This document shows positions 3,876-20,572 of a stretch of 64,000 nt of DNA, piece by piece. Source of the DNA: Roseiflexus sp. RS-1. Lineage in GTDB: Bacteria; Chloroflexota; Chloroflexia; Chloroflexales; Roseiflexaceae. The DNA is taken from the NCBI RefSeq assembly GCF_000016665.1, contig NC_009523.1, positions 2,542,001 through 2,606,000 on the forward strand. Reading direction: 5' to 3'. Numbering within the stretch: the stretch's first letter is position 1; every line of letters starts with the position of its first letter. The position numbers were made by a program, and so were the translations under genes. The notes beneath the pieces were generated by a model. It searched no databases and was not told the DNA's origin. It saw only the letters and a program-made list of their open reading frames with translations.

Positions 3876-4185
3876 CTATTGCATATGTGGCTCATCCAGA
3901 TGACCAGGAACTTTGATGATTCGCCGCTTGTCAATGACCCGAATCTGCTCACAAAGCACAACCGAGTCCTGGGTCAAGCCACCGATGCCTGCGGGAACGA
4001 ATACAATGGGAAGGCAAAAGCGCACGACGGATTTTTGTCGTGAACGGTGCAATGATGGTATGTGGACTGACGGCGTTAGCACGGTCATTTTGCAACACGA
4101 CAACAGGGCGCACGCCAGCCTGTTCTGTACCCGTCACTGGATTGAGATCACACAAAACCACGTCACCGCGCGTGATGATCACCAC
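3876..4185 (-). pseudogene. MazF/PemK-type toxin, frameshifted
   Basis: Endoribonuclease toxin gene of the MazF/PemK family. The first frame reads MVIITRGDVVLCDLNPVTGT, then VRPVVVLQNDRAN and TIIAPFTTKIRRALLPSH. One extra base at about 4005-4006 breaks it. The neighbouring frame continues with VFVPAGIGGLTQDSVVL and EQIRVIDKRR, the expected family continuation. Removing one base gives a 102-residue protein of normal length. In the frame as read, translation stops at 3949 after about 25 foreign residues. The start overlaps the antitoxin end by 7 bp, typical of coupled pairs. It is either a true inactivating mutation or a sequence error. Confidence 0.85.
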
Positions 4186-4406
4186 TGGATTTCTCCTCGT
4201 GCCAGGCGATTCTCGTAGTCTTCGAGATTGGGCAAGTAATCAGCGAAGCCCGACTCGGAAAGCGTGAGCGCATCGGTAAAGTGAATCCACAGTTGCCAGC
4301 GAGTGCTATCCTGTCTCACCAGCAAAAAGTCGATGAAATCGTTCACTTCCTGCACAAGTGACTCGGGCAACTGACGAATCTTTGGTGACAGTCGTATCAT
4401 ACACAT
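4179..4406 (-). CDS. antitoxin, DUF2281-like
   Basis: A 75-residue antitoxin encoded directly before the MazF-like toxin, which it would bind and neutralise while repressing the shared promoter. The N-terminal half has the pattern IRQLPESLVQEVNDFIDFLL seen in DUF2281 proteins. The C-terminal half (SGFADYLPNLEDYENRLARG) is acidic, as toxin-binding tails usually are. It is intact although its toxin partner is frameshifted. A weak site AAAGGTAG lies upstream. The start could also be the third codon (ATG). Confidence 0.72.
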   Translation of the reverse strand: MCMIRLSPKIRQLPESLVQEVNDFIDFLLVRQDSTRWQLWIHFTDALTLSESGFADYLPNLEDYENRLARGEIQW

Positions 4407-4526
4407 TCATATGTTTCTACCTTTCTATCAGACGCTGAGTCTGACCACTGACAGATTGAATGTTTCCATTTGCTTGACCGATAGGGTGCGACGCACGTCG
4501 TTCAAGTATATCATCTGTACAGGCTC

Positions 4527-5849
4527 TTAAGTCGCGGCTTTGATACTGCGCAGGCGATAGAGCAGTTCACCGGCTTTTGGCACGAGGAGCCATCCGTCCG
4601 CCTCGCGCCCTGCCCATTCGGCGGGGTTGATCGTCGCGGGGTCGCAGTAGCCGACATGATGGGCGGCGCAGCGTTCTGGCGAGATGCCGGTCGCCAGCGT
4701 TACCCGGATACGCGGGCGCTCACCCCGCTCCGGGTCGTACTCCCCGCTGCCGGCGAGATGGGTGCTGTGCGCCAGGACGCTCCAGGGGTAATGGCGGAAG
4801 CGATCCCACTGCCGGACAAAGTAGTCGCGCACGTGGTACCCGATTTCTGCCAGCGTTGCGCCGTGGGTCGCACTGAATTCGGTGATGTGCGGCGCGTAGA
4901 TGATGATCTCGCCCCCGTCGGCAACCACCGGCTCGAGTTTGTACATGCCCTTGGCGGCAGTCCACATATCCCGGTACATTTCTGGTACGATCGACAATAC
5001 CCGCCGGAAGGGGCGATCAACGTAGCGGATATGCACCTGCGCCGAGAGATGGGCAGCAGCCTGCCAGGCTTCTTCCGGCGTCCCGCTGAAGATGCCGCAG
5101 AGCCGTCCATTCTCCGGCGCCACGACAACCGCAATGCACCATTTCGGGGTCGGCACGAGCGCAGCCGCGCGGTCGATCAGGCGGCGCACCGGCGTTGCGC
5201 CTGGCACGCCAATAATGGCGTAACTGGTGATCAACGCGCCGAGCCAGTGCGATACGTCGATTACCTCACGACCGCTGATGCCGGGGAACAGATATTTGTT
5301 GCCGCCGGAGAACCCGACGACCTCGTGGGGAAACACGGGTCCACAGATCACCAGATGGTCGTACTCCAGCGCCTTCCGGTTGATCCGCACCTCGACCGGT
5401 ACAGCCAGCAGTCCGTTGCTCAACGCTTCGATCTCAGCAGCGTCGATGACGCCGACCGGGATGCATGTGGCGGGGTCTGACCATTCGTGGTTGAAGACGC
5501 GGACGCCGCGGAAGGTTGTTTCCCATTCGCCGGGCATTACTCCGAGATGCCGGTTGATCTGTGCAGGGGTCATTGGCTGGTGTGTGCCGAGCGCTATCAG
5601 TACGTCGAGGGCGGCGACGCGGGGGGCAAGGGCTGCGTGGATGCAGCGAAACAACAGCGGCAGTGGTACGGTGCGAGTTCCGTCCGGTACGATGAGCAAC
5701 ACCCGTCGCCCATCGACAGCGATAGGATCCAGCCCTTCGTGCACGGCAGCAGCAACCTCATCATCACTGAGGAAACGGGCTGCATCGCCGGATCCATAGA
5801 CTTTTTCCGGCAGATCGATGGGTGTGGCGTTCCGGTTTGGTGCGTGCAT
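4527..5849 (-). CDS. larA: LarA-like nickel-dependent lactate racemase family protein
   Basis: Racemase or epimerase of the LarA family (DUF2088), which in known members interconverts D- and L-lactate or other 2-hydroxyacids with a nickel-pincer nucleotide cofactor. 440 residues from ATG at 5849, chosen because CAGGGACGAC precedes it (another ATG lies at 5882). Visible motifs are DGTRTVP near the N-terminus, GTHQPMT, then HEVVGFSGGNKYLFPGISG, which carries the family histidine and pincer-lysine region. No cofactor genes (larB, larC, larE) lie nearby, so cofactor supply must come from elsewhere. Substrate is uncertain because the family includes other hydroxyacid racemases. A lactate permease gene lies 11 kb away. 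Confidence 0.85.
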   Translation of the reverse strand: MHAPNRNATPIDLPEKVYGSGDAARFLSDDEVAAAVHEGLDPIAVDGRRVLLIVPDGTRTVPLPLLFRCIHAALAPRVAALDVLIALGTHQPMTPAQINRHLGVMPGEWETTFRGVRVFNHEWSDPATCIPVGVIDAAEIEALSNGLLAVPVEVRINRKALEYDHLVICGPVFPHEVVGFSGGNKYLFPGISGREVIDVSHWLGALITSYAIIGVPGATPVRRLIDRAAALVPTPKWCIAVVVAPENGRLCGIFSGTPEEAWQAAAHLSAQVHIRYVDRPFRRVLSIVPEMYRDMWTAAKGMYKLEPVVADGGEIIIYAPHITEFSATHGATLAEIGYHVRDYFVRQWDRFRHYPWSVLAHSTHLAGSGEYDPERGERPRIRVTLATGISPERCAAHHVGYCDPATINPAEWAGREADGWLLVPKAGELLYRLRSIKAAT

Positions 5850-5880
5850 GGTCGTCCCTGTTTGATGTTCAGATGAGTGC

Positions 5881-6004
5881 AACGTTCAACCTTCAACGTG
5901 CAACCTTACAACGTGCAACCTTCAACGTGCAACCTTCAACGTGCAACCTTCAACGTGCAACCTTCAACGTGCAACTTTTGACCTTCAACGTCCAACCCTA
6001 CAAC
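5881..6004. repeat. heptanucleotide tandem repeat (CAACCTT / CAACGTG)
   Basis: About seventeen 7-bp units, mainly CAACCTT alternating with CAACGTG, giving an apparent 14-bp period. It fills the divergent gap between the LarA-like gene and the sensor kinase and stops about 13 bp before the kinase -10 element. Same class as the arrays at 534, 20576, 20740, 24842 and 56925. Confidence 0.9.
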
Positions 6005-6013
6005 CGCCCAAGG

Positions 6014-6022
6014 TGCTATAAT
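6014..6022 (+). promoter_or_regulatory. extended -10 promoter of the sensor kinase operon
   Basis: TGCTATAAT lies only 7 bp before the ATG at 6030. Transcription starting about 7 bp after the -10 would begin at or next to the start codon, so the kinase mRNA is probably leaderless. No Shine-Dalgarno sequence is visible, which agrees. Any -35 element would fall inside the heptad repeats. Confidence 0.6.
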
Positions 6023-6029
6023 CAAAGCC

Positions 6030-7544
6030 ATGTCGATACGCACCCGGTTGACAGTTTCATACGTCGGCTTTTTTGCGATTGCGTTACTGGCGCTGCATGT
6101 TGGATTGTACCTGATCGTGCGCAGCGCGCTGTTGAACAGCGTCGATAATGAGTTGCGCCTCGGCGTCGAAGTGCTGCGGCGAGGTTTCGCCGAGAGCAAT
6201 CAGACGCCATACGGCTACTTCCGTGATGATCAGTTGCGCGCCATTCTGTTGCGCCAGCCGCCGGTGCGCGACTTCGAAGCGACCAGTCTGTACGTCCAGT
6301 TTTTCGATACCGACGGCGATCTTGTCGGTCGTTCACCGAACATTGGCGATGGTGAACTGGCGACGGCGCTTGCTCTCGACCGGCAGCGCTTTGCCAGCGT
6401 GCTCGAAGGCGGCGAGCAGATTACGACCATTGAACACGGGAACATTCATGTCCGTGAGTTAATGGCGCCACTGTGGTTCTTCAATCCGGTCACTCGCCGC
6501 GAGGAGGTCGTCGGCGTTCTCCAGGTCGCGCGCTCAATGGCGGAGACCCAACATGCGTTGCAACTCCTCTTCTATGCGCTGACCTTCGGTGGTGTGATCG
6601 TCCTGCTGGCGGCAGCACGCGGCGGCGCGTGGTTGACGCGCGCTGCATTTCGTCCGATTGACGAGATTGCTCAGACGGCGCAGAGTATTGTGCGCGCCGA
6701 AGATCTGAGCCGGCGTATTCCAGTGCCGCCAGCCGCCGATGAGTTACAGCGTCTGACGATTACAGTCAATGATCTGCTGGCGCGGATGGAGGAACTTTTC
6801 AATACGCAGCGTCGTTTCATTGCCGATGTGTCCCACGAGTTGCGCACGCCGTTGACGGCGATGCAGGGCAATCTTGAAGTGCTGGCGCGCGGCGCGGCGC
6901 GCGACCCGCAGTTGCTGAACGAGTCGCTCGATGATATGCGCCGTGAGGTTGCCCGGTTGATCCGTATGGTCAATGATCTGCTTTTGCTCGCGCGGAGCGA
7001 TGCCGGTATTCAGATCCGTCGCGATCCTGTCGAACTCGATACGCTGCTCCTTGAAACGTATCGTGAGTTGCGTCTGCTGGCGGGGCAGGTGCATCTCCGC
7101 ATCGGCGAGGAGGATCAGGCAGTGGTGACAGGCGACCGTGATCGCATCAAACAGGCGCTGCTCAATCTTGGCGTCAATGCCATTCAACACACGCCGCCCG
7201 GCGGCGAAGTGACGTTGAGCCTTACAGTGCGCGACGGGTATGCCGTGTTGAGTGTCGCCGATACAGGATACGGCATTGCGCCGCAGGATCTGCCGCACAT
7301 CTTTGATCGTTTCTATCGTGCGGATCGTTCCCGCAGTCGCAACGGCGGCGGAGCGGGACTGGGATTGTCAATCGTTCGTTCAGTAGTTGAGGCGCATAGC
7401 GGGCAGGTACTGGTGACCAGCGAACCGGGCAGGGGAAGCGTCTTTACGATGCTGTTGCCGCTTGCGGTTCAACCGGATCGAACACCCCCGCTCGAGATCA
7501 ACCCCGCCCCTGAAACTGCCCCCCAAACGGTCGATGCCGCATGA
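6030..7544 (+). CDS. membrane sensor histidine kinase
   Basis: Two-component sensor kinase that autophosphorylates on histidine and passes the phosphate to a response regulator. 504 residues: membrane segment about 11-34, extracytoplasmic sensor about 35-175, second membrane segment about 177-200, HAMP about 201-255, phospho-acceptor His269 in ADVSHELRTPL, N box with Asn383 in NLGVNAIQH, G1 box DTGYGI (411-416) and G2 box GGGAGLGLSIV (439-449). All catalytic parts are present. No response regulator lies in the window beside it. Its stop overlaps the ATG of the downstream permease (ATGA), so the two are translationally coupled and may share a signal. Confidence 0.95.
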   Translation: MSIRTRLTVSYVGFFAIALLALHVGLYLIVRSALLNSVDNELRLGVEVLRRGFAESNQTPYGYFRDDQLRAILLRQPPVRDFEATSLYVQFFDTDGDLVGRSPNIGDGELATALALDRQRFASVLEGGEQITTIEHGNIHVRELMAPLWFFNPVTRREEVVGVLQVARSMAETQHALQLLFYALTFGGVIVLLAAARGGAWLTRAAFRPIDEIAQTAQSIVRAEDLSRRIPVPPAADELQRLTITVNDLLARMEELFNTQRRFIADVSHELRTPLTAMQGNLEVLARGAARDPQLLNESLDDMRREVARLIRMVNDLLLLARSDAGIQIRRDPVELDTLLLETYRELRLLAGQVHLRIGEEDQAVVTGDRDRIKQALLNLGVNAIQHTPPGGEVTLSLTVRDGYAVLSVADTGYGIAPQDLPHIFDRFYRADRSRSRNGGGAGLGLSIVRSVVEAHSGQVLVTSEPGRGSVFTMLLPLAVQPDRTPPLEINPAPETAPQTVDAA

Positions 7545-9382
7545 ACCCTGCGATGATCATCGTCTTCGGCATCCTGACGCTGACGGTCATCCTGTTTGCC
7601 AGTGATCGTCTGCGTCTGGATGTGGTTGCACTGATGGCGGTGCTGCTGCTGCTCCTGACCGGCATTCTGACGCCCGCCGAAGCCCTTGCCGGGTTTTCTG
7701 ATCCGATTGTGCTGATTATCGCCGGGTTGTTTATTGTCGGCGCGGGCCTGTTTCGGACCGGCGTCGCCGATGCGCTGGGGCAGCAACTGGTGCGGCTTGC
7801 AGGCACGGGTGAAGCGCGTCTGATCGTTGCGATCATGCTGATCGTCGCCTTTCTCTCAGCATTCTTGAGCTCGACCGGCACGGTTGCCGTCTTTCTGCCA
7901 GTGGTCGTCAGCCTGGCGCAGCGCACGGGCATCAGCCCGACGAAACTGCTCCTGCCCCTCGCCTATGCTTCGCTGATCGGCGGCATGCTGACATTGATCG
8001 GTACGCCGCCCAACATTGTCGTCAGCAATCAACTCCAGTCCGCTGGCATGACGCCCTTCGGCTTCTTTTCGTTCACGCCGGTTGGCGCAGTGATGCTGAT
8101 GATAGGAATCGCGTATATGGCGACAGTTGGGCGTCGGTTGCTGCCAGAACGCGCCCATCTATCGGGTGCGTCGCGTGATGGAAAAACACTGATTGACCCG
8201 GCTACCCTGCTGGCGCTGTACGATCTTCCCGGCAAACTGGCGCGGGTGCAGGTCGAACCAGCCTCGCCGCTGGTCGGGCAGACGCTGGCGCAGGCGAATC
8301 TGCGGGCGCGCTATCGCGTGAATGTGGTCGATGTCGAGCCGCCAGCGTCGCAGGGAATGATCGCCTCGCCACAGGTTGCACGCTCCGAGATAACGCTCAA
8401 GCCGATGGATGTGCTGCTGGTCAAAGGATCAGCGGACGATGTTGCACGTCTGGCGAAGGATCTGCAGGTGCGCGTGCTTGCGACCGGCGTCAACCCGGAT
8501 GACCTGATCACCGAAGAAACCGGGATCGTCGAACTGGTGCTGACGCCGCGGTCGCGGTTGATCGGTCACACGTTGCGCGAAGTGCGCTTTCAGGATGCGT
8601 ATCAGGTGCTGGTGCTGGCGATCCTGCGGATGGGTGCGCCGCTCGATGCACCGACGTCGCAGGTGGAACTGCGCTTCGGCGACACTCTTCTGGTGCAGGG
8701 CGACTGGGAACGGATCGCATCTCTCCTCGATGAACGCAACGATTTTGTGGTTGTCGGCGAGATGCGCCGTCCGCCCGTCAGACGCGCGCTGACCCGACGC
8801 GCTCCGATTGCGCTGGCGATCATGATCGGCATGCTGCTCCTCATTTCATTTGAGGTGATGCCGATGGTCACTGCGGTGCTGCTGGCTGCCGTGGCAATGG
8901 TGCTGACCGGCTGCCTGTCGATGGATGAGGGGTATCGGGCGATCAACTGGGAGAGTGTGGTGCTGATCGCTGGCATGCTGCCGATGGCGACTGCGCTCGA
9001 CAAAACAGGCGGTATGAGTCTTGTTGCGAGCGGGTTGACTGCGACTCTCGGCGCGGTGAGTCCGCTGGCGTTGATGGCAGGTCTCTTTATACTCACGGCG
9101 ATCTTTAGCCAGTTCATCTCAAATACCGCCACCACGGTGCTGATGGCGCCGATTGCATTGCAGGCAGCGATCGAATCTGGCGTATCGCCGTATCCGCTGC
9201 TCATGGTTGTTGCGCTTGCAGCTTCGACCGCCTTCGCCACCCCGGTGGCATCACCGGTCAACACGCTGGTGCTGGGACCGGGCGATTACCGTTTTACCGA
9301 TTTCGTGCGAGTAGGGACGCCACTGCTAGTGGTGATGCTGATCGCGTCGCTGCTGGTAGTGCCGGTGCTGTTTCCGTTGTAG
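7541..9382 (+). CDS. SLC13/DASS-type anion permease with TrkA-C domains
   Basis: Membrane transporter of the divalent anion/Na+ symporter or ArsB-like superfamily, the type that moves sulfate, phosphate or dicarboxylates. 613 residues with about eleven hydrophobic segments. The family motifs SAFLSSTGTVAVFLPVV and TLIGTPPNIVVSNQL lie in the first half, and SNTATTVLMAPIA with AFATPVASPVNTLVLGPG in the second. Two soluble TrkA-C-type domains (about 215-300 and 315-400, each containing a DVLLVKG- or DTLLVQG-like strand) sit between the halves, as in bacterial sulfate-type members. It starts inside the stop codon of the kinase gene. The transported ion cannot be told from sequence. Confidence 0.9.
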   Translation: MNPAMIIVFGILTLTVILFASDRLRLDVVALMAVLLLLLTGILTPAEALAGFSDPIVLIIAGLFIVGAGLFRTGVADALGQQLVRLAGTGEARLIVAIMLIVAFLSAFLSSTGTVAVFLPVVVSLAQRTGISPTKLLLPLAYASLIGGMLTLIGTPPNIVVSNQLQSAGMTPFGFFSFTPVGAVMLMIGIAYMATVGRRLLPERAHLSGASRDGKTLIDPATLLALYDLPGKLARVQVEPASPLVGQTLAQANLRARYRVNVVDVEPPASQGMIASPQVARSEITLKPMDVLLVKGSADDVARLAKDLQVRVLATGVNPDDLITEETGIVELVLTPRSRLIGHTLREVRFQDAYQVLVLAILRMGAPLDAPTSQVELRFGDTLLVQGDWERIASLLDERNDFVVVGEMRRPPVRRALTRRAPIALAIMIGMLLLISFEVMPMVTAVLLAAVAMVLTGCLSMDEGYRAINWESVVLIAGMLPMATALDKTGGMSLVASGLTATLGAVSPLALMAGLFILTAIFSQFISNTATTVLMAPIALQAAIESGVSPYPLLMVVALAASTAFATPVASPVNTLVLGPGDYRFTDFVRVGTPLLVVMLIASLLVVPVLFPL

Positions 9383-9592
9383 TTGAAATTGCTCAAGGAA
9401 GGGCTGGTGCACGCCCTGATCGGGCAAAAGTTCTATGGCTGGGGCTACGATGCGGTCGGTATTCTGTACGACATCGTGGTGAACAAAAAGACCTATCCGC
9501 CCTTCGTGGACACCGGTTTCGATCTGGTGCGCACGCCGGAAGAGGCGGATCGGTTCTTGAAGAAATGGGAGACGGGAAACTGGAAGGACTGA
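9383..9592 (+). pseudogene. C-terminal fragment of a sugar-binding protein (ABC transporter type)
   Basis: About 69 codons follow the permease stop immediately and in the same frame. The peptide (QKFYGWGYDAVGILYDIVV, KTYPPFVDTGFDLVR, EADRFLKKWE) matches the C-terminal end of RbsB-like periplasmic sugar-binding proteins. The N-terminal three quarters are missing and no start codon or ribosome site fits, so it is a relic. The only codon between permease and relic is TAG, so the join looks like a deletion that fused two genes, or readthrough could append this tail. A terminator follows at 9625. Confidence 0.75.
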
Positions 9593-9624
9593 TGCTCCGT
9601 CGCCGATCATAGATGCTCCCCCGG

Positions 9625-9654
9625 AGGCAACCCGTCGGGTTGCCTCTTGCTTTT
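9625..9654 (+). terminator. rho-independent terminator
   Basis: Perfect 9-bp stem AGGCAACCC / GGGTTGCCT with a 3-base loop, followed by CTTGCTTTT. It ends the kinase-permease unit and insulates the baeRF operon. Confidence 0.85.
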
Positions 9655-9784
9655 ACACGGTTTCAAGGATCACGGTGCATCCTGATGCCAACTCCATCAG
9701 CAGAGACGCCCGTAATCTCCTATAATGGCTTTCTTGATTGAGGACCCGCAGGTTGATGCGTTGTGTTGACAGAAAGGGACGTTG

Positions 9785-10870
9785 ATGAATCGCCACGACA
9801 TCCGTTTGCTCCAGGCGGTGCGACTCTATCCTTCGGTGACGATCACGTCGCCGACCCATCGCACAACACCCGACAACAAGCAGGACCCGATTCGCGTGCG
9901 GAATCTGGTGACCGAGGCGACCAATCGGTTGCTCGCTGAGTTTTCCAGGCGCGATGTCGAGCCGCTGCTTTCCCGTTTGGAGGCGCTGGTCAATGATATC
10001 GATTACCGCTACACCCTCGATGGACTGGCGCTGTTCGTCAATCGCGATATTGGCCGTCAATTCATTCTGCCGTTTACGCTGCCGGAGCGTGTTGTGGTTG
10101 ATGAAACGTTCTGGACGCGCAGCCTGGTGTTTGCACTCAATCGCACGCCACGCTACTGGGTGCTGGCGCTCAGTGAACAACCGACGCGCCTGTTTGAGGG
10201 GGTGCGTGAGCATCTGCAGGAGATCACCGGGGAAGGTTTCCCGATGACACATACCGGTCCAGGCGGAGAGCGCGGATTGCCGAATGACCCTGCGATCAAT
10301 CGTTCAGCGTACCGTGATGAGCGACACCGCCAGTTTTTCCGCCAGGTCAGCGCGGCGCTGACGCCCTTCATCACGGATGACCCGTTGCCGCTGGCGCTGG
10401 TCGGCATTGATCGATATATTGCCTTCTTTCGTGAAGTGTCGCCGCATGCTGGCGCCGTGATAACGACACTGACCGGCAGTCACGATAAGACGCCAGCGCA
10501 AGAACTCGGGAAACTGGTGTGGCCCCTGGTCGAACAGAACCTGGCTGTCCTCCGCGCCGGGGCGCTGAAGGAACTCGAAGCAGCAGTCGGTGCGCAGAAG
10601 TATGCCTCGACAATTGGCGAGGTCTGGCGGTTTGCCCACGAAGGGCGCGTAAGCGTGCTCCTCGTTGAAGAAAACTATCATCAACCGGCGCGGATCGCCG
10701 CTGATGGCGTCACACTGACGCTGGTAGATGACCCGACGCTGCCGGACGTTGTGGATGATGCAGTGGATGAGATCATCTCGCTCGTGCTGGAAAAGGGTGG
10801 GCGCGTGGTTTTCGTGGATGATGGCGCGTTGCCCCAACACCAGCGTATTGCGGTGATACTCCGATACTAA
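9785..10870 (+). CDS. baeRF-type (bacterial eRF1-like) protein
   Basis: 361 residues from ATG at 9785, preceded by AAAGGGAC. The N-terminal pattern (VTITSPTHRTTPDNKQDP, then IRVRNLVTEATNRLL) is that of the bacterial archaeo-eukaryotic release-factor superfamily, baeRF, probably family 3. The C-terminal third (GRVSVLLVEENYHQPARI, VDDAVDEIISLVLEKGGRVV, LPQHQRIAVILRY) resembles the eRF1 domain 3 end. These proteins are predicted, mostly from gene neighbourhoods, to act on ribosomes under stress or in conflict. No GGQ motif is visible, so peptide release is not implied. It heads a row of four genes ending with a methylase specificity domain. A -10-like TATAAT lies at 9721. Confidence 0.65.
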   Translation: MNRHDIRLLQAVRLYPSVTITSPTHRTTPDNKQDPIRVRNLVTEATNRLLAEFSRRDVEPLLSRLEALVNDIDYRYTLDGLALFVNRDIGRQFILPFTLPERVVVDETFWTRSLVFALNRTPRYWVLALSEQPTRLFEGVREHLQEITGEGFPMTHTGPGGERGLPNDPAINRSAYRDERHRQFFRQVSAALTPFITDDPLPLALVGIDRYIAFFREVSPHAGAVITTLTGSHDKTPAQELGKLVWPLVEQNLAVLRAGALKELEAAVGAQKYASTIGEVWRFAHEGRVSVLLVEENYHQPARIAADGVTLTLVDDPTLPDVVDDAVDEIISLVLEKGGRVVFVDDGALPQHQRIAVILRY

Positions 10871-10893
10871 TCGTCGCATGCTGCGGCGTGAAC

Positions 10894-11550
10894 ATGTCCA
10901 TGATCTGCCTGACTATCAGTGATGAGATTGTTCCGGCGATTTACAGCCTGAACATCAAACAGCGCTTCGGCGATGTGGGATGTGTGCTGAGTTGTGGCGA
11001 TCTTCCCTACTACTACCTGGAGTTCATCGTCACGATGCTGTGTGTGCCGTGCTATTACGTGAAAGGCAATCACGACACGGTTGAAATCCGTGAGAACGGC
11101 GATGTGCTGACCGAACCGTGCGGTTGTGTTTCGCTGGAGACCACGTGCGTGGTGCACGAAGGGACGCTGATCGGTGGGTTGGGAGGAAGCGTGCGGTACA
11201 ATCAGGAACCGGGCCCGCAGTACACCGAGGTTGAAATGTTGACCCGCATCTGGCGCATGGCGCCGCAGTTGATCGTCAACCGGTTGCGCTATGGGCGCTA
11301 TCTCGATGTGCTGCTGACCCACGCGCCGCCGCTCGGAATCCACAATGGTCCTGATCGTCCGCATCGCGGGTTTCGCGCATTTTTGTTCTTTATGGACATG
11401 TTCGCGCCGCGCTATCTCATTCACGGTCATGTGCACCGTTCGTATGGTGTGCGTGAACCGTGGCAGACGCGCTACCGTCGCACACTGGTCATTAACACAG
11501 CCGGATATCGTCTGGTATCGATCGAAATATCGAAAGCAGTGATGTCGTGA
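10894..11550 (+). CDS. calcineurin-like metallophosphoesterase
   Basis: 218 residues from ATG at 10894 (GTG 10888 and ATG 10900 are alternatives; ribosome site weak). Metal-ligand motifs of the calcineurin-like fold are visible: GD at 35-36, GNHD at 58-61, LLTHAPPLG, and HGHVH near residue 173. The first motif, normally DxH, reads SDEI, so its histidine is absent. Related proteins with this change exist, but it may alter the metal site. The substrate is unknown; members cleave phosphodiesters, nucleotides or phosphoproteins. Its end overlaps the next gene (GTGA), indicating coupling. Confidence 0.82.
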   Translation: MSMICLTISDEIVPAIYSLNIKQRFGDVGCVLSCGDLPYYYLEFIVTMLCVPCYYVKGNHDTVEIRENGDVLTEPCGCVSLETTCVVHEGTLIGGLGGSVRYNQEPGPQYTEVEMLTRIWRMAPQLIVNRLRYGRYLDVLLTHAPPLGIHNGPDRPHRGFRAFLFFMDMFAPRYLIHGHVHRSYGVREPWQTRYRRTLVINTAGYRLVSIEISKAVMS

Positions 11551-12479
11551 GTCCACTGAACACATTTTCCCAAAACGAAGGATTGCATCAGTTCGAAGAG
11601 GCGCGTCGTAAGGCGTTCATTGCCGGTATTTTTGATACATTACTCCGACAATCGGGCAACATGTTATCACTCGACGAAGTGCGCGCCCGCCTGAAGGTGC
11701 GTGGTCAGCGTTTCCTGGGATTACAGACCGTTCCTGTTGATCGAATTATCGGTAGCGAAGGACGTTATCTCGATTTTGATCGGCGTTTTTTGCCGCGTTC
11801 CGGCAAACTCAAGCGACGTTGGGCGAAAATCCACGCACTTGCCCGGCAGATGGCGACGCTTCCGCCGGTCGATCTGTACAAGATCGGCGATGCCTATTTT
11901 GTGCGCGATGGCAATCATCGTGTGTCGGTTGCACGGCAGATCGGGCAGAAGGAGATCGATGCGTATGTGACCGAGTTGCTGGTTGATGTCCCGCTTGGAC
12001 CGGACGACTCGGTGTGCGATCTGTTGCTCAAGGAGGAATACAGCGATTTTCTGGAGTGGACGGAACTGCACCTGCTTCGTCCCGATCAACGCATCGAGTT
12101 CAGCGAACCGGGCGGGTATCTTGATCTGGTGCAGCATATCAACGCGCATCGCTACTTTATGGGTCTGGAACAGCAGCGCGAGATTTCACGGGCAGAAGCT
12201 GTCGCCGACTGGTACGATACAGTGTATATGCCGGTGGTGCAGGCTATTCGTCAGCACCGGGCGCTGGACTATTTTCCAGGGCGTACCGAAGCCGATCTGT
12301 ACCGCTGGATCGCTGCGCATCGCTGGACGCTTCTTGAGCAGACCGGGAGTGATCCGGGACCAGAACGGGCCACGCGCCACTATCTCGATCATTATCTGCG
12401 CACCCACCCGCTCGATGCGCTGCACGCCATCGTTCATAATCTTATGGGTCGTCTGAGTAGAACGCATGAATCCCACTGA
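11547..12479 (+). CDS. ParB-like nuclease-fold domain protein
   Basis: 310 residues, with a GTG start at 11547 inside the stop of the phosphoesterase gene. The central part (VDLYKIGDAYFVRDGNHRVS, then VARQIGQKEIDAYV) is the ParB/sulfiredoxin-like signature, in which DGNHRVSVA is the nucleotide-binding loop. The N-terminus (about 1-60) has a helical RRKAFIAGIFDTLLRQ stretch, and the C-terminal half is helical with no motif I know. It could bind DNA or a nucleotide; no partition partner ParA lies in this operon, though a ParA-like ATPase gene lies 1.5 kb downstream. Its 3' end overlaps the next gene by 14 bp. Confidence 0.65.
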   Translation: MSPLNTFSQNEGLHQFEEARRKAFIAGIFDTLLRQSGNMLSLDEVRARLKVRGQRFLGLQTVPVDRIIGSEGRYLDFDRRFLPRSGKLKRRWAKIHALARQMATLPPVDLYKIGDAYFVRDGNHRVSVARQIGQKEIDAYVTELLVDVPLGPDDSVCDLLLKEEYSDFLEWTELHLLRPDQRIEFSEPGGYLDLVQHINAHRYFMGLEQQREISRAEAVADWYDTVYMPVVQAIRQHRALDYFPGRTEADLYRWIAAHRWTLLEQTGSDPGPERATRHYLDHYLRTHPLDALHAIVHNLMGRLSRTHESH

Positions 12480-13464
12480 CATCCTGACAACCTTGCAGGC
12501 AGCTGGTCGTCCGCTCAGCGATCTGGTCGGTGTGCCGCAGCGCGGAATCGGGCGGCTGGCGACGGCGCGCCTGTTGGCGGATAAGGCGACGCGCGATCAG
12601 ATCGTTCTTTTCGAGCCAGCGCTGGCGCCGTTCCTGCGACGGATCGTGCGCGGTGTTGATATCCATCCCTGGTATTGCGAACCTTCCCGCTACCTGGTGG
12701 TGCTGCCGCCGGGATGGAGCGCTGGAGCGGATGTGCGCGCTGAACAGGCATGGGAATATCTGGCGCAGCGTTGTCCGCCGCTCCATCGTCATCTTGCGTC
12801 GGCAGCAACCCGTAAAACGTGCGATGTGGCGTGGTGGGAATTCCCAGACTGCGACCTGACACCCTTTGCGCAGGCGCGCATCGTCTGGCCCGCCGCCAGT
12901 GTGACACAACGGTATGCGCTCACCGATCCTGGTTGTCTGGTCGGTCCCGGCGCCTGTCACATCCCCGCGTCCCTGTTTCTGCTGGGGGTGCTGATGAGTC
13001 GTCTGGGGTGGCTGGCAGTAACGGCGATGGGGCGGGTTGGGCGGGTCTACCGGCTGGCGCCGGAGCAGATCGGACGTATACCAATACCGGAGGCGACGGA
13101 AAACGAGCGTGCGGCGATTGAAGCGCTGGTGCAACGGATCGTTGACCTGACCCGCGAACGGGTTGCGCTGGAGCGCCAGTTTACCCGACGGCTGTTGAGG
13201 GATTTTGGACCTCCCGGCGCGACGCCGGGCGCGCGTCTGGAACGCTGGTGGGAACTGGATTTTGCGGCGCTGCGCCAGGCAGTTGCAGCGCGCTTCGGCG
13301 GCGACATCCCGGCGCGTTTCCGAGAACAATGGCAGGCGCAGCACGCCGACGCCATTGTCCGGCGCGCTGCGCTCAGCGACGCCCGCGCCCTTGCCGAAGC
13401 GACGTTGAATGCGCGGGTGGCGCTGCTGTATGGGGTTGATCCGCAGGGCACAATGATGTTGTGA
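12466..13464 (+). CDS. stand-alone TaqI/Eco57I-type specificity (TRD) domain protein
   Basis: 332 residues that resemble only the C-terminal target-recognition part of type II/IIG methylases. Visible are YLVVLPPGW, AWEYLAQRCPPLHRHL, the WWEF core at 123-126, ARIVWPAASVTQRYAL, and IGRIPIP at about 202-208, followed by a helical tail (210-260). The methyltransferase motifs (NPPY, FxGxG) are absent, so it cannot methylate alone. It may read DNA for partners in the preceding three genes, or be a relic. Its 3' end (13318-13440) is duplicated at 16781-16903, beyond the three-gene cassette. Confidence 0.68.
   Translation: MNPTDILTTLQAAGRPLSDLVGVPQRGIGRLATARLLADKATRDQIVLFEPALAPFLRRIVRGVDIHPWYCEPSRYLVVLPPGWSAGADVRAEQAWEYLAQRCPPLHRHLASAATRKTCDVAWWEFPDCDLTPFAQARIVWPAASVTQRYALTDPGCLVGPGACHIPASLFLLGVLMSRLGWLAVTAMGRVGRVYRLAPEQIGRIPIPEATENERAAIEALVQRIVDLTRERVALERQFTRRLLRDFGPPGATPGARLERWWELDFAALRQAVAARFGGDIPARFREQWQAQHADAIVRRAALSDARALAEATLNARVALLYGVDPQGTMML
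13318..13440 (+). repeat. left copy of 123-bp direct repeat flanking the cassette
   Basis: This segment of the TRD gene recurs at 16781-16903 in the same orientation with about four mismatches. The two copies bound the 3.3-kb block that holds the HEPN-like, ParA-like and P-loop genes. Confidence 0.93.
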
Positions 13465-13470
13465 TGTCAT

Positions 13471-13500
13471 TTGCCTCTTTTTGCGAGAAAAGGTTATACT
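13471..13500 (+). promoter_or_regulatory. promoter of the three-gene cassette
   Basis: A -35 TTGCCT (13471-13476) and a -10 TATACT (13495-13500) are separated by 18 bp, just after the TRD gene stop and about 40 bp before the first cassette gene. The cassette therefore has its own promoter. Confidence 0.55.
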
Positions 13501-13539
13501 ATCACGAACTCATTGTGATTGTTGAATAATCTGGCAAAG

Positions 13540-13953
13540 ATGAATATCGACTTTCTCGACGCGTATCTCCGGCATTGGGAGGATGCCGAGGTGCTCTTTG
13601 GTTCGGAGCGCTGGGCGAACGCTGACCATCTCTACGGACTGGCAGCAGAGTGCGGACTGAAACGTCTCATGATCGCCTTTGGTATGCCGGTGACAACCGA
13701 TGGCGATCCTCAACACCGGAATGATCGCGTTCATGCGGATCAGGTCTGGATACGCTACGAAACGTACCGTTCAGGTCACGGTTCCGGCAGTGGCTACGCC
13801 CTGCCATCACCGAATCCATTCAATAACTGGCATGTTTCTCAGCGTTATGCCGCGCAGACGAACTTCACCCAAAGCCACGTTAACGCTCACCGTATCGGTG
13901 CGGACCTTGTTCGCAAACTGATTCAGCAGGCTCAGATAGATGGTTTGGTATGA
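13540..13953 (+). CDS. small HEPN-like protein, first gene of cassette
   Basis: 137 residues from ATG at 13540; no clear ribosome site is seen, and a TTG at 13519 is an alternative. The first half (YLRHWEDAEVLFGSERWANA, DHLYGLAAECGLKRLM) is two helices typical of a family often mislabelled as a methyltransferase; I see no SAM-binding motif. The helical layout and the RND and HVNAHR motifs in the second half suggest a HEPN-type fold, which in conflict systems may be an RNase, but the canonical Rx4-6H motif is not certain. Its TGA overlaps the ATG of the ParA-like gene. Function unknown. Confidence 0.6.
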   Translation: MNIDFLDAYLRHWEDAEVLFGSERWANADHLYGLAAECGLKRLMIAFGMPVTTDGDPQHRNDRVHADQVWIRYETYRSGHGSGSGYALPSPNPFNNWHVSQRYAAQTNFTQSHVNAHRIGADLVRKLIQQAQIDGLV

Positions 13954-15248
13954 CGACCTTTGACCAGATTGTGCCAGCGCTCACTGAGATGCTACGCGAT
14001 CAACGCGAAGCGCTCTCCAGGATCGGCCCGTTGATCGTCAATCGCGATCTCAATGGTCGCGTGCGATTAATTGTGAACGAAGAGGTGCAATCGAACCCCG
14101 AATTGATGAAACACATACGCGCGTTGACCCGTCAGATGGCGGAACGCCTTGGTCGCCACACCTTTCCGTCGGATCAAGCGGTGCTCTTTGATGCACATAT
14201 CGATGCGATTCGTGAAGAGTTGCCGGGATTCACGCTCGAAGGGCTGGACAACATCTGGGTTGTTGATCGGCTTGTGACCGAAAGTAACTGGGCTGCCATT
14301 TCACCGGTAGCAGGGGGTGCGCCGCGCGTGGTCTTTTTTTCCCTCAAGGGCGGGGTTGGACGCTCGACAGCCATGGCGGTATCAGCCTGGGCGCTCGCCC
14401 AGGAAGGATATCGTGTCCTGGCGCTTGATCTCGATCTTGAGTCGCCGGGTCTCTCGTCGGCGCTGCTGCCTGAACATCGCCATCCAGAGTACGGCATCAC
14501 CGATTGGTTGGTCGAAGATCTGGTGGATAACGGCGGAGCGGTGTTTGAAGGGATGGTAGCGATCAGTCCTTTATCACGTGACGGCGACATTTATGTCGTA
14601 CCGGCGCACGGTAAAGATCCAGGTGAATACATTCCAAAACTTGGCCGCGTCTGGATGCCCAGGGTCGATCCCAAGGGCCGGCGTGAGATCTGGTCGCTGC
14701 GCCTCCGGCGTTTGATCGATAATCTGGAGCGGCGCTACCATCCAGATGTTATCCTGATCGACTCGCGCGCTGGCATCGATGAGGCGGCATCAGCCTGTAT
14801 CACCGATCTTGGCGCTCATCTGGCGCTTCTCTTTGCAGTCGATAGTGAACAAACGTGGTCAGGCTATCGTATTCTGTTTCGTCACTGGCGAATTGCCGGA
14901 GTTGCGCGTACCATCCGTGAACGGTTACAGGTCGTCGGTGCGATGGTTCCTGAGAGCAATCGCGTAGCGTATCTCGAACGGTTCCGCGAACGCGCCTGGT
15001 TTCTCTTTGTCGAAGATCTCTATGATCAGGTTTTACCCGAAGCCGAGCCAATGGGACCCTGGAGTTTCGATCTGGCCGACGAAAACGCCCCCCATACTCC
15101 CTGGGTGATTCGCTGGCATCCTGAGTGGATGGCAATCCGTTCGCTGCACGATCACGTGTCAGCCATCGACGCAGCAGGAGTCGATCTGATCTTCGGACAC
15201 CTTATTGACAATCTGCGGGTGTTTATCAGTAGCCAGAATCAGTCATGA
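13950..15248 (+). CDS. ParA/MinD-like ATPase with KGGVGRS loop
   Basis: 432 residues. The N-terminal 110 residues are helical and unassigned. A SIMIBI-class NTPase domain follows: deviant Walker A KGGVGRST at 133-140, Walker A'-like LALDLDLESPG (Asp160, Asp162), and VILIDSRAGIDE with Asp271. The usual GK[ST] lysine is Arg138 here, while the signature lysine Lys133 is kept. Chromosome or plasmid ParA proteins are about half this size and pair with ParB; no centromere-like repeats are seen. It starts inside the stop of the HEPN-like gene and ends inside the start of the next gene (both ATGA), so the three products are probably made together. Confidence 0.8.
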   Translation: MTTFDQIVPALTEMLRDQREALSRIGPLIVNRDLNGRVRLIVNEEVQSNPELMKHIRALTRQMAERLGRHTFPSDQAVLFDAHIDAIREELPGFTLEGLDNIWVVDRLVTESNWAAISPVAGGAPRVVFFSLKGGVGRSTAMAVSAWALAQEGYRVLALDLDLESPGLSSALLPEHRHPEYGITDWLVEDLVDNGGAVFEGMVAISPLSRDGDIYVVPAHGKDPGEYIPKLGRVWMPRVDPKGRREIWSLRLRRLIDNLERRYHPDVILIDSRAGIDEAASACITDLGAHLALLFAVDSEQTWSGYRILFRHWRIAGVARTIRERLQVVGAMVPESNRVAYLERFRERAWFLFVEDLYDQVLPEAEPMGPWSFDLADENAPHTPWVIRWHPEWMAIRSLHDHVSAIDAAGVDLIFGHLIDNLRVFISSQNQS

Positions 15249-16681
15249 GCAATGTTCAGTTCATCCGACAGGCGCTCGTGGAGGCTCTCCCCATAGCCAC
15301 GTCGAGTTATGGCGAAGAACCCCATCCCGGCCACATGTACGTTCCGTCGGCGCATGTCAAGGCGCTTCGATTGGAGTGCAACCTGGTCATCGGCGCCCGG
15401 GGCGTCAGAAAATCGTTCTGGACGGCGGCGCTGCATGCGCGAACGTTACGCGCCTTACTCGGTCAATCGGTGCGCGAACTTGAAAGCACCGATGTGCGCA
15501 TTGGATTCTCGGTTGCACCATTGCTTGACGCATATCCCGATAGCGATATTTTCAGGGCGCTTATCAAACAGCATGCCGCCTATGATATCTGGCGTGCAGT
15601 GATCGCACGCTGGCTGGCGGAGATAACTCCAGCAACTCTGCCTCGCACTACCTGGGAGGAAACAGTCCGGTGGGCTTCCAGTCATCCCGAGGCGATTGCG
15701 AAAATGGTGCAGGATGCGAATATGCGTCTGGAGGCGGAGCAACGCTACGGATTGATTGTTTTCGATGCGCTTGACCGTACCAGTAACGACTGGCGGACAA
15801 TGGATGCCATCGTGCGTGATCTGCTGCGTGTGGTTCTGTGGCTCAAATCCTATGCGCGTCTTCATGCGAAGGTCTTCCTGCGCGAAGATCAGTTTGATCG
15901 CACGGTGACAGACTTTCCCGATGCATCAAAATTGCGTGCGACAATGTCCGAATTGACATGGGCGCCGCACGATCTGCACGGTCTTCTCTGGCAAATGCTT
16001 TGCAATGCACCAGATGAGTACGGAAAGACGTTGCGAGCGGTGTATAGCAGCGTTGTTGGAACTCCGCCTCTCTGGCACGATAACGTCTGGCGCCTCGCCG
16101 AAGACGTAAAGCGCGAGGGAGAAAAACAACGTCTCTTGTTCGAGAAACTGGCAGGGAAGTGGATGGGCAGTGATCACCGGCGTGGCGTTCCCTACGTCTG
16201 GTCAGTGAGCCACCTGGCCGATGGACGTCGACGCACATCGCCGCGTTCGTTTCTTGCAGCAATCCGTGCTGCTGCGGAAGACTCTCGTGAACGCTACCCG
16301 GATCATGCATATGCTCTTCACTATGAAAGCATCAAGCGCGGCGTGCAGCGTGCATCCCAGATACGCGTCGATGAACTGGCTGAGGACTACCCATGGGTCA
16401 CGAAACTTATGGCGCCTTTGCGCGGCTTGACCGTACCATGTTCGTTTAGCGTCATCGAAGGACGTTGGAACGAATACTTTCCGCATGGACCGGACGAGAT
16501 CAGGAGTACACGCCTTCCGCCTCAGCACGCGGAGCAGGGATGGAGGGGGGTGTGCAACGATCTGGAGCGACTGGGTATCTTTGAGCGGATGCACGATATG
16601 CGTATTAATATGCCCGACCTGTACCGCGTTGGCTTTGGATTGGGCCGTCGTGGCGGCGTGAAACCTATTCGACAACCCTGA
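15245..16681 (+). CDS. P-loop NTPase, third gene of cassette
   Basis: 478 residues. A Walker A-like loop GARGVRKS lies at 50-57 after the strand ECNLVI, and a Walker B-like GLIVFDALDRTSNDW has acidic Asp174 and Asp177. This layout fits an AAA/STAND-type ATPase. The arginine-rich middle (KVFLREDQFDRT, SYARLHAK) may include the sensor region. The C-terminus (about 380-470) has a winged-helix rhythm (GVCNDLERLGIFERM). I cannot name the family. It is coupled to the ParA-like ATPase by an ATGA overlap and is the last gene before the right-hand direct repeat. Confidence 0.65.
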   Translation: MSNVQFIRQALVEALPIATSSYGEEPHPGHMYVPSAHVKALRLECNLVIGARGVRKSFWTAALHARTLRALLGQSVRELESTDVRIGFSVAPLLDAYPDSDIFRALIKQHAAYDIWRAVIARWLAEITPATLPRTTWEETVRWASSHPEAIAKMVQDANMRLEAEQRYGLIVFDALDRTSNDWRTMDAIVRDLLRVVLWLKSYARLHAKVFLREDQFDRTVTDFPDASKLRATMSELTWAPHDLHGLLWQMLCNAPDEYGKTLRAVYSSVVGTPPLWHDNVWRLAEDVKREGEKQRLLFEKLAGKWMGSDHRRGVPYVWSVSHLADGRRRTSPRSFLAAIRAAAEDSRERYPDHAYALHYESIKRGVQRASQIRVDELAEDYPWVTKLMAPLRGLTVPCSFSVIEGRWNEYFPHGPDEIRSTRLPPQHAEQGWRGVCNDLERLGIFERMHDMRINMPDLYRVGFGLGRRGGVKPIRQP

Positions 16682-16780
16682 TCCGCATAGGAAGAAGCGG
16701 GCACAGGCGCCGTTTTCGGCAGACGAACTGCGACCTCACCTGCCCTCCAAAACACGCCTTAACTGCCCGCCAAAACACGC

Positions 16781-16903
16781 TTCCGGGAACAATGGCAGGC
16801 GCAGCACGCCGACGCCATTGTCCGGCGCGCTGCGCTCACCGACGCCCGCGCCCTTGCCGAAGCGACGATGGATGCGCGGGTGGCGCTGCTGTATGGGGTT
16901 GAT
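16781..16903 (+). repeat. right copy of 123-bp direct repeat (TRD gene 3' end)
   Basis: Near-identical copy of 13318-13440. It has no start codon or upstream gene body, so it is a fragment. It ends exactly where the lactate permease stop codon begins (16904-16906). Just before it, 16740-16781 contains a short duplication of CTGCCC-CCAAAACACGC. Confidence 0.93.
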
Positions 16904-18628
16904 CTACCTTGAAGCAGCGTTGCGCACTGCTTCGGCAACCAGCGGATCACTGATACTCAAGCCGTAGATCGCAATCAACCCGATGGCGCCAGCAACCAGC
17001 AGGTAGTAGAGTGTCGGGATCGCCGTCTTGCGCAGCGTTGCCCCTTCCTGACCCAGCAGCCCCACCGTTGCCGAGGCGGCAACCACATTGTGGATGGCGA
17101 TCATATTGCCAGCCGCCGCACCCACCGATTGCAGCGCCACAATCGCTGCGCCGGAGATCAGCAGGCGCTCGGCGACACCGTGCTGGAAGAGACTGAACAT
17201 CAGGTTGCTGACAGTGTTGCTGCCGGAGATGAACGCTCCGAGCGCGCCGATCGTCGGCGCGAAGAGAGGCCAGATACCGCCCACATTAACCGCAACCCAC
17301 TCAGCCATGCTGATCGGCATGCTTGCGATGCCCAGCGCATTGACCCCCGAATTGATATAGACGCGCACCATCGGTACGGTGAAGATCAGCACAAAGCCTG
17401 CACCCAGAATAACCTTGCTCGAATCGCTGATTGCCGCCTGGAGTTCACTGCGACTCATCCGGTGAATGAAGAAGGTGATCAGCACCACCGTGATCAGGAT
17501 CGATGCTGGCAGATAGAGCGGTGTTGTCGAGGCCGTAATCCCGGTGTCGAAGATGTTGCTCCATTCGATCTTCAGCACTGATCGCAGCGTGGAACCGATC
17601 GGCAGTTGCGGCAGACGGGTCAGCACCAGGAAGAGCGCCACCAGCAAATACGGCGTCCATGCCAGCCAGGTGCTCATCGTCTTCTTGCCCGTCAGATCAT
17701 CGAGTTTCATCTCAATTCGACCAAGCCACTCCGGTTGCCACTCGCTCGCCGGTGCAAAATCCCAGGTATCCTTCGGCAGCAGAAACCGGCGTCGCGCCGC
17801 CGCAACGACAATCGCCAGCCCCACCAGCGCGCCCAGGAGTGACGGAAACTCCGGACCCAGCAGGATGCCGGTAAGGGTGTAGGGAACGGTAAACGCCAGA
17901 CCGCTGAATATGGCGAACGGGGCCATCGACAATCCTTCCGTCCACGATTTATTCTTGCCAAAGAAACGGGTCATCATCACGACCATCAGCAGCGGCATGA
18001 GCGTGCCGGTTATGCCATGAATGACTGCGGCGCGCACCGTAATGAGGCGCAGATAGTCGCTGAACGTCAGCCCGACTGCGGCAAGTTGTGCGCTCAATTC
18101 AGGCGTCTCCAGCCCGCCGCGTACTCCGACCAGGATTGGAGTTCCCACCGCGCCGAACGTCACCGGGGTGCTCTGCACCATCATCCCGATCATCACTGCC
18201 GCCATTGCCGGGAAACCGAGCGCAACCATCAGCGGCGCAGCAATTGCGGCTGGCGTGCCGAATCCCGACGCCCCTTCGATGAACGAACCGAACAGCCAGC
18301 CGATGATGATCGCCTGCACCCGCCGGTCATCGCTGATCCTGCTGAACCCATTTCGGATAACCGTCACGGCGCCAGAATGCTTGAGCGTGTTGAGGAGCAG
18401 AATAGCGCCAAAAATGATCAGGAGAATATCAAGCGTAATGAACAACCCCTGAATGGTCGAGGCGATCACCCGCAGCGGCGAGACCTGCCAGGCAAAGAGG
18501 GCGATCAGGACAGCAATCACGTAGACGACCGGCATCGCCCGCCGTGCGGGCCAGCGCAAACCGACGAGGAGAACCGCTGCGATCAGAATTGGACTGAATG
18601 CCAGCAACGCCTGAAGTCCGAGACTCAT
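16904..18628 (-). CDS. lctP: L-lactate permease family transporter
   Basis: Inner-membrane lactate/glycolate:H+ symporter family (LctP). 574 residues from ATG at 18628, preceded by GGGAGG at good spacing. There are about twelve to fourteen membrane segments. Typical patterns include [35 protein letters not shown], and [19 protein letters not shown] near the C-terminus. Length is close to the 550 of known members. The 3' end is trimmed right up to the direct-repeat fragment at 16781-16903. An operator-like inverted repeat lies 165-195 bp upstream. It could feed lactate metabolism along with the LarA-like racemase, but the two genes are not adjacent. Confidence 0.9.
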
Positions 18629-18891: not shown

Positions 18892-19143
18892 ATGCACCGC
18901 AGAGTCGCGCACTGTCTGCTCTTCGTCCAGGTCGAGATATACAGTGTCATTCCCGGCGAGCAGTTAGAGTGTATTCGTGTCCTGCGCGTGACCGTTGGGA
19001 CTATCATCGGCTTGTTGGCGGCTGGTCATAGCATAGAGGAGGTTCTCGAGGACTACCCTTACCTGGAAGAAGCCGATATTCGCGCGGCTTTGCACTATGC
19101 CGCCTGGCGCGTGGAAGAAATCGAACTCCCTCTGGGTGCATGA
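18892..19143 (+). CDS. DUF433 antitoxin-like protein
   Basis: 83 residues. The part from residue 20 on (CIRVLRVTVGTIIGLLAAG, EDYPYLEEADIRAALHYAAW) is the DUF433 helix-turn-helix family, antitoxins that pair with DUF5615 PIN-like toxins. The conserved glycine of CIRG is valine here, and the first 20 residues do not match the family, so the N-terminus is decayed or the start is misplaced. The next gene begins with the last base of its final coding codon (ATGA), the expected pairing, but that toxin is truncated. Confidence 0.65.
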   Translation: MHRRVAHCLLFVQVEIYSVIPGEQLECIRVLRVTVGTIIGLLAAGHSIEEVLEDYPYLEEADIRAALHYAAWRVEEIELPLGA

Positions 19144-19301
19144 AAATCCTGCTTGACATGAACCTCTCCCCTCGATGGGTGGAAACGCTCCAAGCCGAGG
19201 GGTGGGAAACGTTACACTGGTCGCACGTGGGCGATCCACGCGCAAGCGATGATGTTATTGTGGGATGGGCACGCCAGCATGGTTTCGTCGTTTGCACTCA
19301 C
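19140..19301 (+). pseudogene. DUF5615 PIN-like toxin, truncated
   Basis: The reading frame opens as a normal PIN-like toxin ([46 protein letters not shown]) and then loses all similarity at about 19301. That is where the converging tyrS gene ends (stop at 19298). The family continues with a D-x-D-F catalytic stretch that is missing, so the nuclease is presumably inactive. It overlaps the DUF433 gene by 4 bp. Confidence 0.8.
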
Positions 19302-20572
19302 CCGACCTTCACCAGATGGTACTGTTTGCGTCCTTTGCGCAGCACGATGAACTGCCCGTCGATGCTGTCGTTCAGTGTCAGGCGCCGCCCGACATCGGGG
19401 CACTGGATGTTATTGACATAAATACCGCCACCCTCAATCGTGCGACGTGCATCGCTCTTCGATGTGGCGATGCCGCAGCGCAGCAACACATCAATCAGGG
19501 GGAAGCCGTCACCCTCGAAGTCCTGGCGCGGGAGTGTGGTTGATGGCACGTCCTCGAATATGTCGATCACATCACCGGCGCTAAGGCGTGCCAGTGACCC
19601 GCCGAACAGCGCCTGCGACGCTTCTTCGGCGCGCGCCAGCGCCGTTTCGCCGTGCACCATGCGCGTCACTTCACGCGCCAGGCGCTGTTGCGCCGTGCGG
19701 CGCTCCGGCTGGCTCGCCGTGATCCGCTCCAGTTCCTCGATTTCATCGGCGCTCAACCAGGTGAAGTACCGCAGATACTTCCCGACATCCGCATCATCGA
19801 CGTTATACCAGAACTGGTAGAAGCGATAGGGCGATGTGCGCTTCGGATCGAGCCACACGGCGCCCGATTCGGTCTTGCCGAATTTGGTGCCGTCGGCTTT
19901 GGTCACCAGCGGGTACACCAGACCATACGCCTTCTGACCGAGGGTGCGGCGGATCAGTTCGATGCCAGCGGTGATATTCCCCCACTGATCGCTGCCGCCT
20001 GCCTGGAGTTTGCAGCCGTAGTGCTCGAAGAGGTAGGCGAAATCATACGCCTGAAGCAGCATATAACTGAACTCGGTGAACGAAATGCCGGTTTCGCTCG
20101 TCATCCGCGAGCGCACCGAGTCCTTCGCCAGCATGTAGTTGACCGTCAGGTGTTTGCCGACGTCGCGCAAAAAATCCATCAACGACAGGCGCGTCAACCA
20201 GTCGGCATTGTTGAGCAGCAGAGCGGAGTGATCACCGGCGTTGAAGTCGAGGAATTGCGCGAGTTGACCTTTGATGGCTTCGACGTTCGCAGCAACCTGT
20301 TCTTTGCTGAGGAGGGGGCGTTCCTGCGTTTTGCCGCTCGGATCGCCGATCAGCCCGGTGCCGCCGCCAGCCAGCGCAATGGGCGTGTGCCCCCAACGCT
20401 GGAAGCGCGCCAGCGTCAGCAGCGGCAGCAGGTGCCCGATGTGCAGGCTATCGGCGCTGGGATCGAAACCGATGTAGAGCGTGACGCGCTCCCGCGTCAG
20501 CAGTTCGTCAAGACCATCGCTGCTTTCGTACAGCAACCCGCGCCAGCGTAGTTCGTCAAGGATTGTGGTCAT
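19298..20572 (-). CDS. tyrS: tyrosyl-tRNA synthetase
   Basis: Attaches tyrosine to tRNA-Tyr. 424 residues from ATG at 20572; upstream in-frame sequence is only heptad repeat. Class I motifs: HIGH at 44-47, tyrosine-pocket YxxxQxxD-like [10 protein letters not shown] (171-180), GGSDQWGNI (192-200), and KFGKT at 230-234 in place of KMSKS. A C-terminal S4 RNA-binding domain spans about 345-424 ([20 protein letters not shown]). Length is normal. No T-box structure is visible upstream. Its 3' end abuts the truncated PIN-like toxin. Confidence 0.97.

Follow-up and report, generated by a model that had tools for sequence, protein, structure and literature searches.

Candidate and predicted defence systems close to a three-gene cassette of Roseiflexus sp. 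RS-1 have been described before. The cassette lies at positions 13540-16681 of the stretch that we analysed (the window, 64,000 nucleotides; NC_009523.1, 2,542,001 to 2,606,000, forward strand), in a genome that is a single contig of 5,801,598 bp. Its genes are here termed A, B and C. The closest described system is PDC-M28 (phage defence candidate, multi-gene 28) of PADLOC, whose candidates were collected by guilt-by-embedding and, for the most part, await validation (PMC12988326). Pairs of a HEPN protein with a ParA-like ATPase, or with a STAND ATPase, were earlier predicted to be conflict modules (PMC3710099). Finally, Type-2 BREX-related operons are composed of a DUF499 ATPase, a DUF1156 methyltransferase, DUF3780 and an HKD-helicase (PMC12839542).

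By its profile matches, the trio is a member of PDC-M28. All three proteins match the models of this system near full length, contiguously and in the order A-B-C. The preliminary description of this DNA had assigned the trio to no named system; the profile search of each protein that it proposed returned PDC-M28 A, B and C, and this rules out an unnamed system. The trio is real and conserved, but it is already catalogued as a candidate, from which it is no different in kind. All three subunits are alike in order, and the window copy differs by a private Walker A substitution in C. A literature search on PDC-M28, KGGVGR or Sll1717 found nothing relevant.

As for the HEPN and ParA/Soj dyads of the MAE_18760 family (PMC3710099), they co-encode a HEPN protein with a SIMIBI ATPase, as the trio does. 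In contrast to them, the trio adds a third, AAA+ gene, and no link of A to MAE_18760 was found, since A matches no Pfam model.

Genes and operon structure

Gene A (13540-13953, forward strand, as are B, C, their motifs, the promoter-like site and the direct repeats below) encodes a HEPN-fold protein of 137 aa (PDC-M28A; PDLC04558, E 3.3e-57). An in-frame TTG at 13519 would give 144 aa, and the ATG at 13540 is favoured by relatives. Gene B (13950-15248) encodes a KGGVGR-variant SIMIBI (ParA/MinD-like) ATPase of 432 aa (PDC-M28B; PDLC04559, E 7.7e-179), with a region of about 120 aa ahead of the ATPase part. Gene C (15245-16681) encodes an AAA+/STAND-ORC-like ATPase of 478 aa (PDC-M28C; PDLC04561, E 2.5e-211), with a helical, winged-helix-like C-terminal region. 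The coupling of the three genes by ATGA, at 13950 for A/B and at 15245 for B/C, was verified in the open reading frames between 13540 and 16681.

The cassette had also been given its own promoter, TTGCCT-18-TATACT (13471-13500). This site is weak, with 9 of 12 matches, and is flanked by the two arms (13449-13465 and 13501-13517) of an imperfect inverted repeat. Sites of such score number 4, against 2.1 +/- 1.4 expected, which is no clear excess over chance, and the promoter claim is not upheld.

Predicted folds and conserved residues

Neither A nor C has a usable sequence-level match to solved structures. The AlphaFold2 model of A (pLDDT 95.4) shows the four-to-five-helix HEPN fold, and its top fold matches are HEPN proteins, led by 1ufb and 3o10 (sacsin) at Z 12.7 and 1wol at Z 11.6, within a range of Z 12.7-10.6. 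HEPN proteins prevail in this search above about Z 7; the unrelated helical bundles score mostly near Z 5. The model and its matches bear out the earlier view of A as a helical, HEPN-like protein, probably of the HEPN-T (PF05168-like) type.

The invariant residues of A, among 64 sequences, are H12, D15, N27, E37, C38, K41, H65, W97, R102 and Y103. The canonical site ahead of the last helix, whose position we infer from aligned ranges with HepT-type toxins, has no conserved Rx4-6H, so a reading of A as a canonical HEPN RNase is not supported. R102 is invariant there, followed in our protein by T107, N108 and F109, and a His at +6 occurs in 6/64. An R24-x5-H30 motif is present in 49/64 but lies at the start of helix 2. 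The R60-H65 pair (RNDRVH) was rejected as the catalytic motif, being kept in 16/64 only. HEPN-T proteins may use a His located elsewhere (PMC3710099), and by analogy A may be an RNase despite the missing motif. The preliminary description also held that the A family is wrongly called methyltransferase elsewhere. We did not meet this misnaming; the gene is a “hypothetical protein” on two plasmids.

Protein B scores 197 bits against NF047398 (NCBIfam AAA_KGGVGR), above the curated cut-off of 90. Its variant Walker A, KGGVGRST (14346-14369, residues 133-140), has Arg in the usual place of the P-loop lysine. The family P-loop reads KGG.GRS, and Arg138 is found in 69/69 aligned sequences. Both the KGGVGR assignment and the Arg reported earlier are therefore confirmed, the latter as a family feature. 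Relatives of known structure are the ArsA, MinD and ParA ATPases. Separately, KGGVGR ATPases with long, partly repetitive C-terminal regions were seen in other Chloroflexota (L141, L142, L143), with no A or C partner in the flanking DNA examined.

Protein C, rightly described before as a second P-loop ATPase, has a predicted AAA+/STAND-ORC-like fold (AlphaFold2, pLDDT 93.5), its model joining an AAA+ core to a C-terminal helical/winged region as STAND and ORC/Cdc6 proteins do. Two archaeal ATPases match its fold best, 2qen (Z 14.0 over 321 residues) and 2fna (Z 13.7), with CED-4 (Z 12.9), Cdc6 (Z 12.8) and, more broadly, ORC/Cdc6 proteins and plant NLRs (Z 11-13) further down. Foldseek places ORC2 at rank 1 and BrxC at ranks 2-3. 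C also resembles the Sll1717-family P-loop ATPases (NF047389) over residues 99-428, but at 55.2 bits it stays below the curated cut-off of 75.

The two motifs reported for C are both present: GARGVRKS in the Walker A (15392-15415) and an acidic Walker B-like strand, VFDALD (15758-15775), in which D174 and D177 are invariant. GARGVRKS, however, is not a family trait. Residue 55 is Arg here (codon AGA) and Gly in 81/82 aligned C proteins, so the Walker A is not intact. This private G55R probably damages the P-loop of the window C, and through it the window copy of the trio may be impaired. Of the 267 columns that are strongly conserved in the three proteins, no other is broken (A 0/39, B 0/104, C 1/124), so the cassette seems otherwise well preserved.

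Co-occurrence and distribution

A scan for C homologues, with one genome per species, found 80 loci with an identity of roughly 50% or higher. A and B were detected by profiles, and loci with enough upstream sequence were taken as informative for them. The loci span Chloroflexota, Pseudomonadota, Chlorobiota, Thermodesulfobacteriota, Spirochaetota, Bacteroidota and others. B adjoins C in 70/75 informative loci and A is likewise adjacent in 66/74, in the order A-B-C, which upholds across many phyla the co-occurrence that the preliminary description had asked for. Among the 63 full trios, 52 have an A/B overlap of 4 nt and 51 have a B/C overlap of 4 or 8 nt. Such recurrence of order and overlaps goes far beyond what chance would give. 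A few loci retain C but lack A or B, and several of the exceptions look like internal deletions. Remnants of A or B were seen upstream of C in three such apparent deletions (L031, L036, L053).

In terms of distribution, the trio is rare and patchy: among 301 Chloroflexota genomes, a strict C match occurs in 3 and a strict A match in 2. Phylum labels on the C tree need 18 changes, against a minimum of 11. This suggests transfer, although the tree is not proof of it. Diverged copies were found on plasmids. In Pseudomonas lopnurensis (L017), a stretch of 8 kb carries two trios, one on each strand (3529-6766 and 8271-11433).

The RS-1 genome itself has a second, diverged HEPN/KGGAGR/AAA+ trio about 117 kb away (L095 7721-9579; L013, genome 2672242-2675443, minus strand). 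Its A' and B' match PDC-M28A and B, and its C' is interrupted by an in-frame TAG. With G55R in one and the TAG in the other, neither C gene of this genome is free of unusual changes.

Furthermore, in two genomes (G180, G293) B and C are fused into one protein with a small HEPN-like gene ahead, and a third, truncated case is apparent (L140). Such natural fusions, with a HEPN-like gene alongside, point to B and C working in one complex. The second trio and the fusion forms (L095, L096, L097) share with the window trio a HEPN-like gene, a KGG(A/V)GR ATPase and an AAA+ ATPase. They differ in being much more diverged, in having B-C as a single protein (L096, L097) and in the nonsense codon of the second-trio C (L095).

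Genomic context in other genomes

Clustering of neighbour genes by BLAST found few recurrent neighbours. A DUF1156-type methyltransferase lies directly before A in 7/58 informative loci and an HKD/PLD-helicase directly after C in 6/73. On the C tree, the association with the methyltransferase or helicase changes 8 times. Other trios are near GajB-like, JetC, type I or type IIG restriction genes, and many are near housekeeping genes.

One locus (L149) reads, in order, DUF499 ATPase, a stretch with a macro-domain open reading frame, DUF1156 methyltransferase, A-B-C and HKD-helicase. By its gene content, this operon is of the Type-2 BREX-related kind with the trio inserted. We had considered that the trio takes the place of the DUF499 ATPase in such operons, and rejected this because the DUF499 gene is present in the L149 operon. 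In this way a subset of trios sits inside Type-2 BREX-related systems, with which they share ORC/Cdc6-STAND ATPase and HEPN themes. The core genes of these systems, on the other hand, are not around the window trio: neither DUF499, DUF1156 methyltransferase nor HKD-helicase was found among the window genes scanned around it.

The neighbourhood check proposed earlier finds BREX-related or restriction genes at some loci, and most immediate neighbours belong to no shared defence family. Judged by these neighbourhoods, the trio is mostly a lone module.

Insertion site and native neighbours

The window trio lies whole within a 3,463-bp insertion (13442-16904, or equally 13315-16777) that is absent from a sister genome (G301). 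The insert is marked by two 127-bp direct repeats, 96% identical and the only copies found in the genome. The left one (13315-13441) is inside the 3' end of a TRD-like gene (12466-13464), and the right one is at 16778-16904. The empty site of G301 has one repeat copy, and there the TRD-like gene leads directly into the sequence that follows the trio in the window. The right repeat continues downstream as in G301, and the left repeat has a different gene end. The two copies differ from each other at 5/127 sites and from the sister copy at 12 and 8, as would be expected of a duplication after the split of the two genomes. No strict trio was found in five other Roseiflexus genomes, one of them incomplete (there was one weak partial C match). 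No integrase was seen within the insert, which makes homologous recombination the likelier route.

The TRD-like gene is syntenic in relatives without the trio. As it is contiguous in the sister genome, it and the genes before it are native and not parts of the trio; a DUF4032 gene at 11547 belongs to the same native block. A baeRF-family-3 protein (9782-10870) matches the AOC03_06830-family ribosome hibernation factor NF052287 (E 1.4e-123). Both neighbours were rejected as trio parts on these grounds. The conflict role proposed in the preliminary description keeps its support from PDC-M28, the patchiness, the empty site and the BREX-related embedding, but loses the TRD-like and baeRF genes, which belong to the native chromosome.

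Two other Roseiflexus genomes (G303, G305) hold other cargo at the same spot, which appears to be ribbon-helix-helix/PIN pairs. From these contents, the gap between the TRD-like and lactate-permease genes looks like a small insertion hotspot. In other Roseiflexus species, what read as ribbon-helix-helix and PIN pairs lie in this gap at L133 1973-2750 and L134 2170-2551. The latter locus also has an open reading frame (2726-3904) whose C-terminal part reads as restriction-endonuclease-type, with a weak CARF-related match (E 0.0055).

Two 23-bp tandem units of the CCTCACCTGCCCTCCAAAACACG type are found in the window at the right-hand insert junction (16734-16779). A DUF433 and DUF5615 (PIN-like) pair near the trio (18892-19421) is a probable toxin-antitoxin unit. 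No tRNA genes were found in the window.

Proposed working and alternative explanations

Our preferred reading, to which we give an even chance, is that the cassette is a stand-alone PDC-M28 member, carried on a small acquired insertion and working as an NTPase-gated anti-invader module in which C senses, B switches and A acts. It is built on the predicted folds of A and C, the motifs, the gene order, the B-C fusions, the operon embedding and the insertion. The PDC-M28 matches, the patchy distribution, the diverged copies on plasmids and the earlier prediction of HEPN pairs as conflict modules (PMC3710099) also speak for it. The ORC/Cdc6-STAND-like C would sense invading DNA or a product of infection and would then signal to B. 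The P-loop Arg of B suggests a cycle of binding and switching in which hydrolysis is slow or absent. Together, B and C could restrain A or form an assembly with it, and then release or arm it. Finally, A would cut or bind RNA and halt the infection.

Several points weigh against this reading. The defence activity of PDC-M28 is itself that of a candidate only, in a class mostly unvalidated (PMC12988326). The missing canonical motif makes the effector role of A uncertain. A fold match of Z ~14 indicates that C is an AAA+/STAND protein, not what it senses. In other genomes, the genes immediately beside the trio mostly match no shared defence family. C has no match in phage records or viral contigs, and with the trio absent from these collections there is no direct link to phage.

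One rival explanation is compatible with the preferred reading and concerns this copy only. It holds that the module is real elsewhere and that the window genome has a decaying remnant, which we regard as a substantial, if lesser, possibility. G55R breaks a position kept by nearly all C proteins, and the C gene of the second trio has its in-frame TAG. With no other conserved column broken, any loss would be recent or the change tolerated, and a sequencing error is possible.

A toxin-antitoxin-like unit, with A as HEPN toxin, B and C as nucleotide-switched antitoxin and defence as one outcome, seems unlikely. The operon is tight and overlapping, with the small HEPN gene first; a dyad of HEPN and ParA/Soj-like ATPase was predicted as a toxin-antitoxin pair (PMC3710099); and the same spot in other Roseiflexus genomes appears to hold ribbon-helix-helix/PIN pairs. 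Against it, A lacks the canonical RNase motif, two large ATPases would be unusual for an antitoxin, and a few loci retain C in the absence of A or B.

To a similarly low degree, the trio could be an accessory specificity or regulatory module of restriction or BREX-related systems, tuning the DNA modification and cleavage of its partners with no effector of its own; in the window its partner would be the TRD-like gene, unless it is an orphan. Its place in DUF499/DUF1156/HKD-helicase operons agrees with this, as do its position immediately behind a type IIG restriction-modification gene at one locus (L075) and its insertion at the TRD-like gene in the window. Yet most loci are without such a partner (the 7/58 and 6/73 above), the TRD-like gene is native and occurs in relatives that have no trio, and the host operon of L149 looks complete without it.

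A DNA partition or other housekeeping ATPase unit is very improbable: B is ParA-like, C resembles ORC/Cdc6 and some diverged copies are on plasmids, but the trio is rare and patchy with no strict copy in congeners, the P-loop Arg of B is invariant, and no ParB-like family is recurrent among the neighbours by BLAST clustering, no profile search having been made.

Returning to the anti-invader module, a bolder form of it is doubtful. In this form the trio would be a new mechanistic class of immune switch, in which a non-canonical HEPN-T with an H65/R102 site is gated by a P-loop-Arg SIMIBI ATPase and triggered by an ORC/STAND DNA sensor, alone or inserted in BREX-related operons. The lesions of both C genes would then reflect selection against a costly trigger protein.

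Significance

The trio is widespread and uncharacterised. With predicted folds for two subunits and an invariant P-loop Arg in the third, PDC-M28 becomes a testable model. Natural B-C fusions suggest a complex, C offers a Walker A variant made by nature, and the clean empty site shows the three genes moving together. Because the trio is embedded repeatedly in BREX-related operons, it is well suited to the question of how restriction systems gain accessory immune modules.

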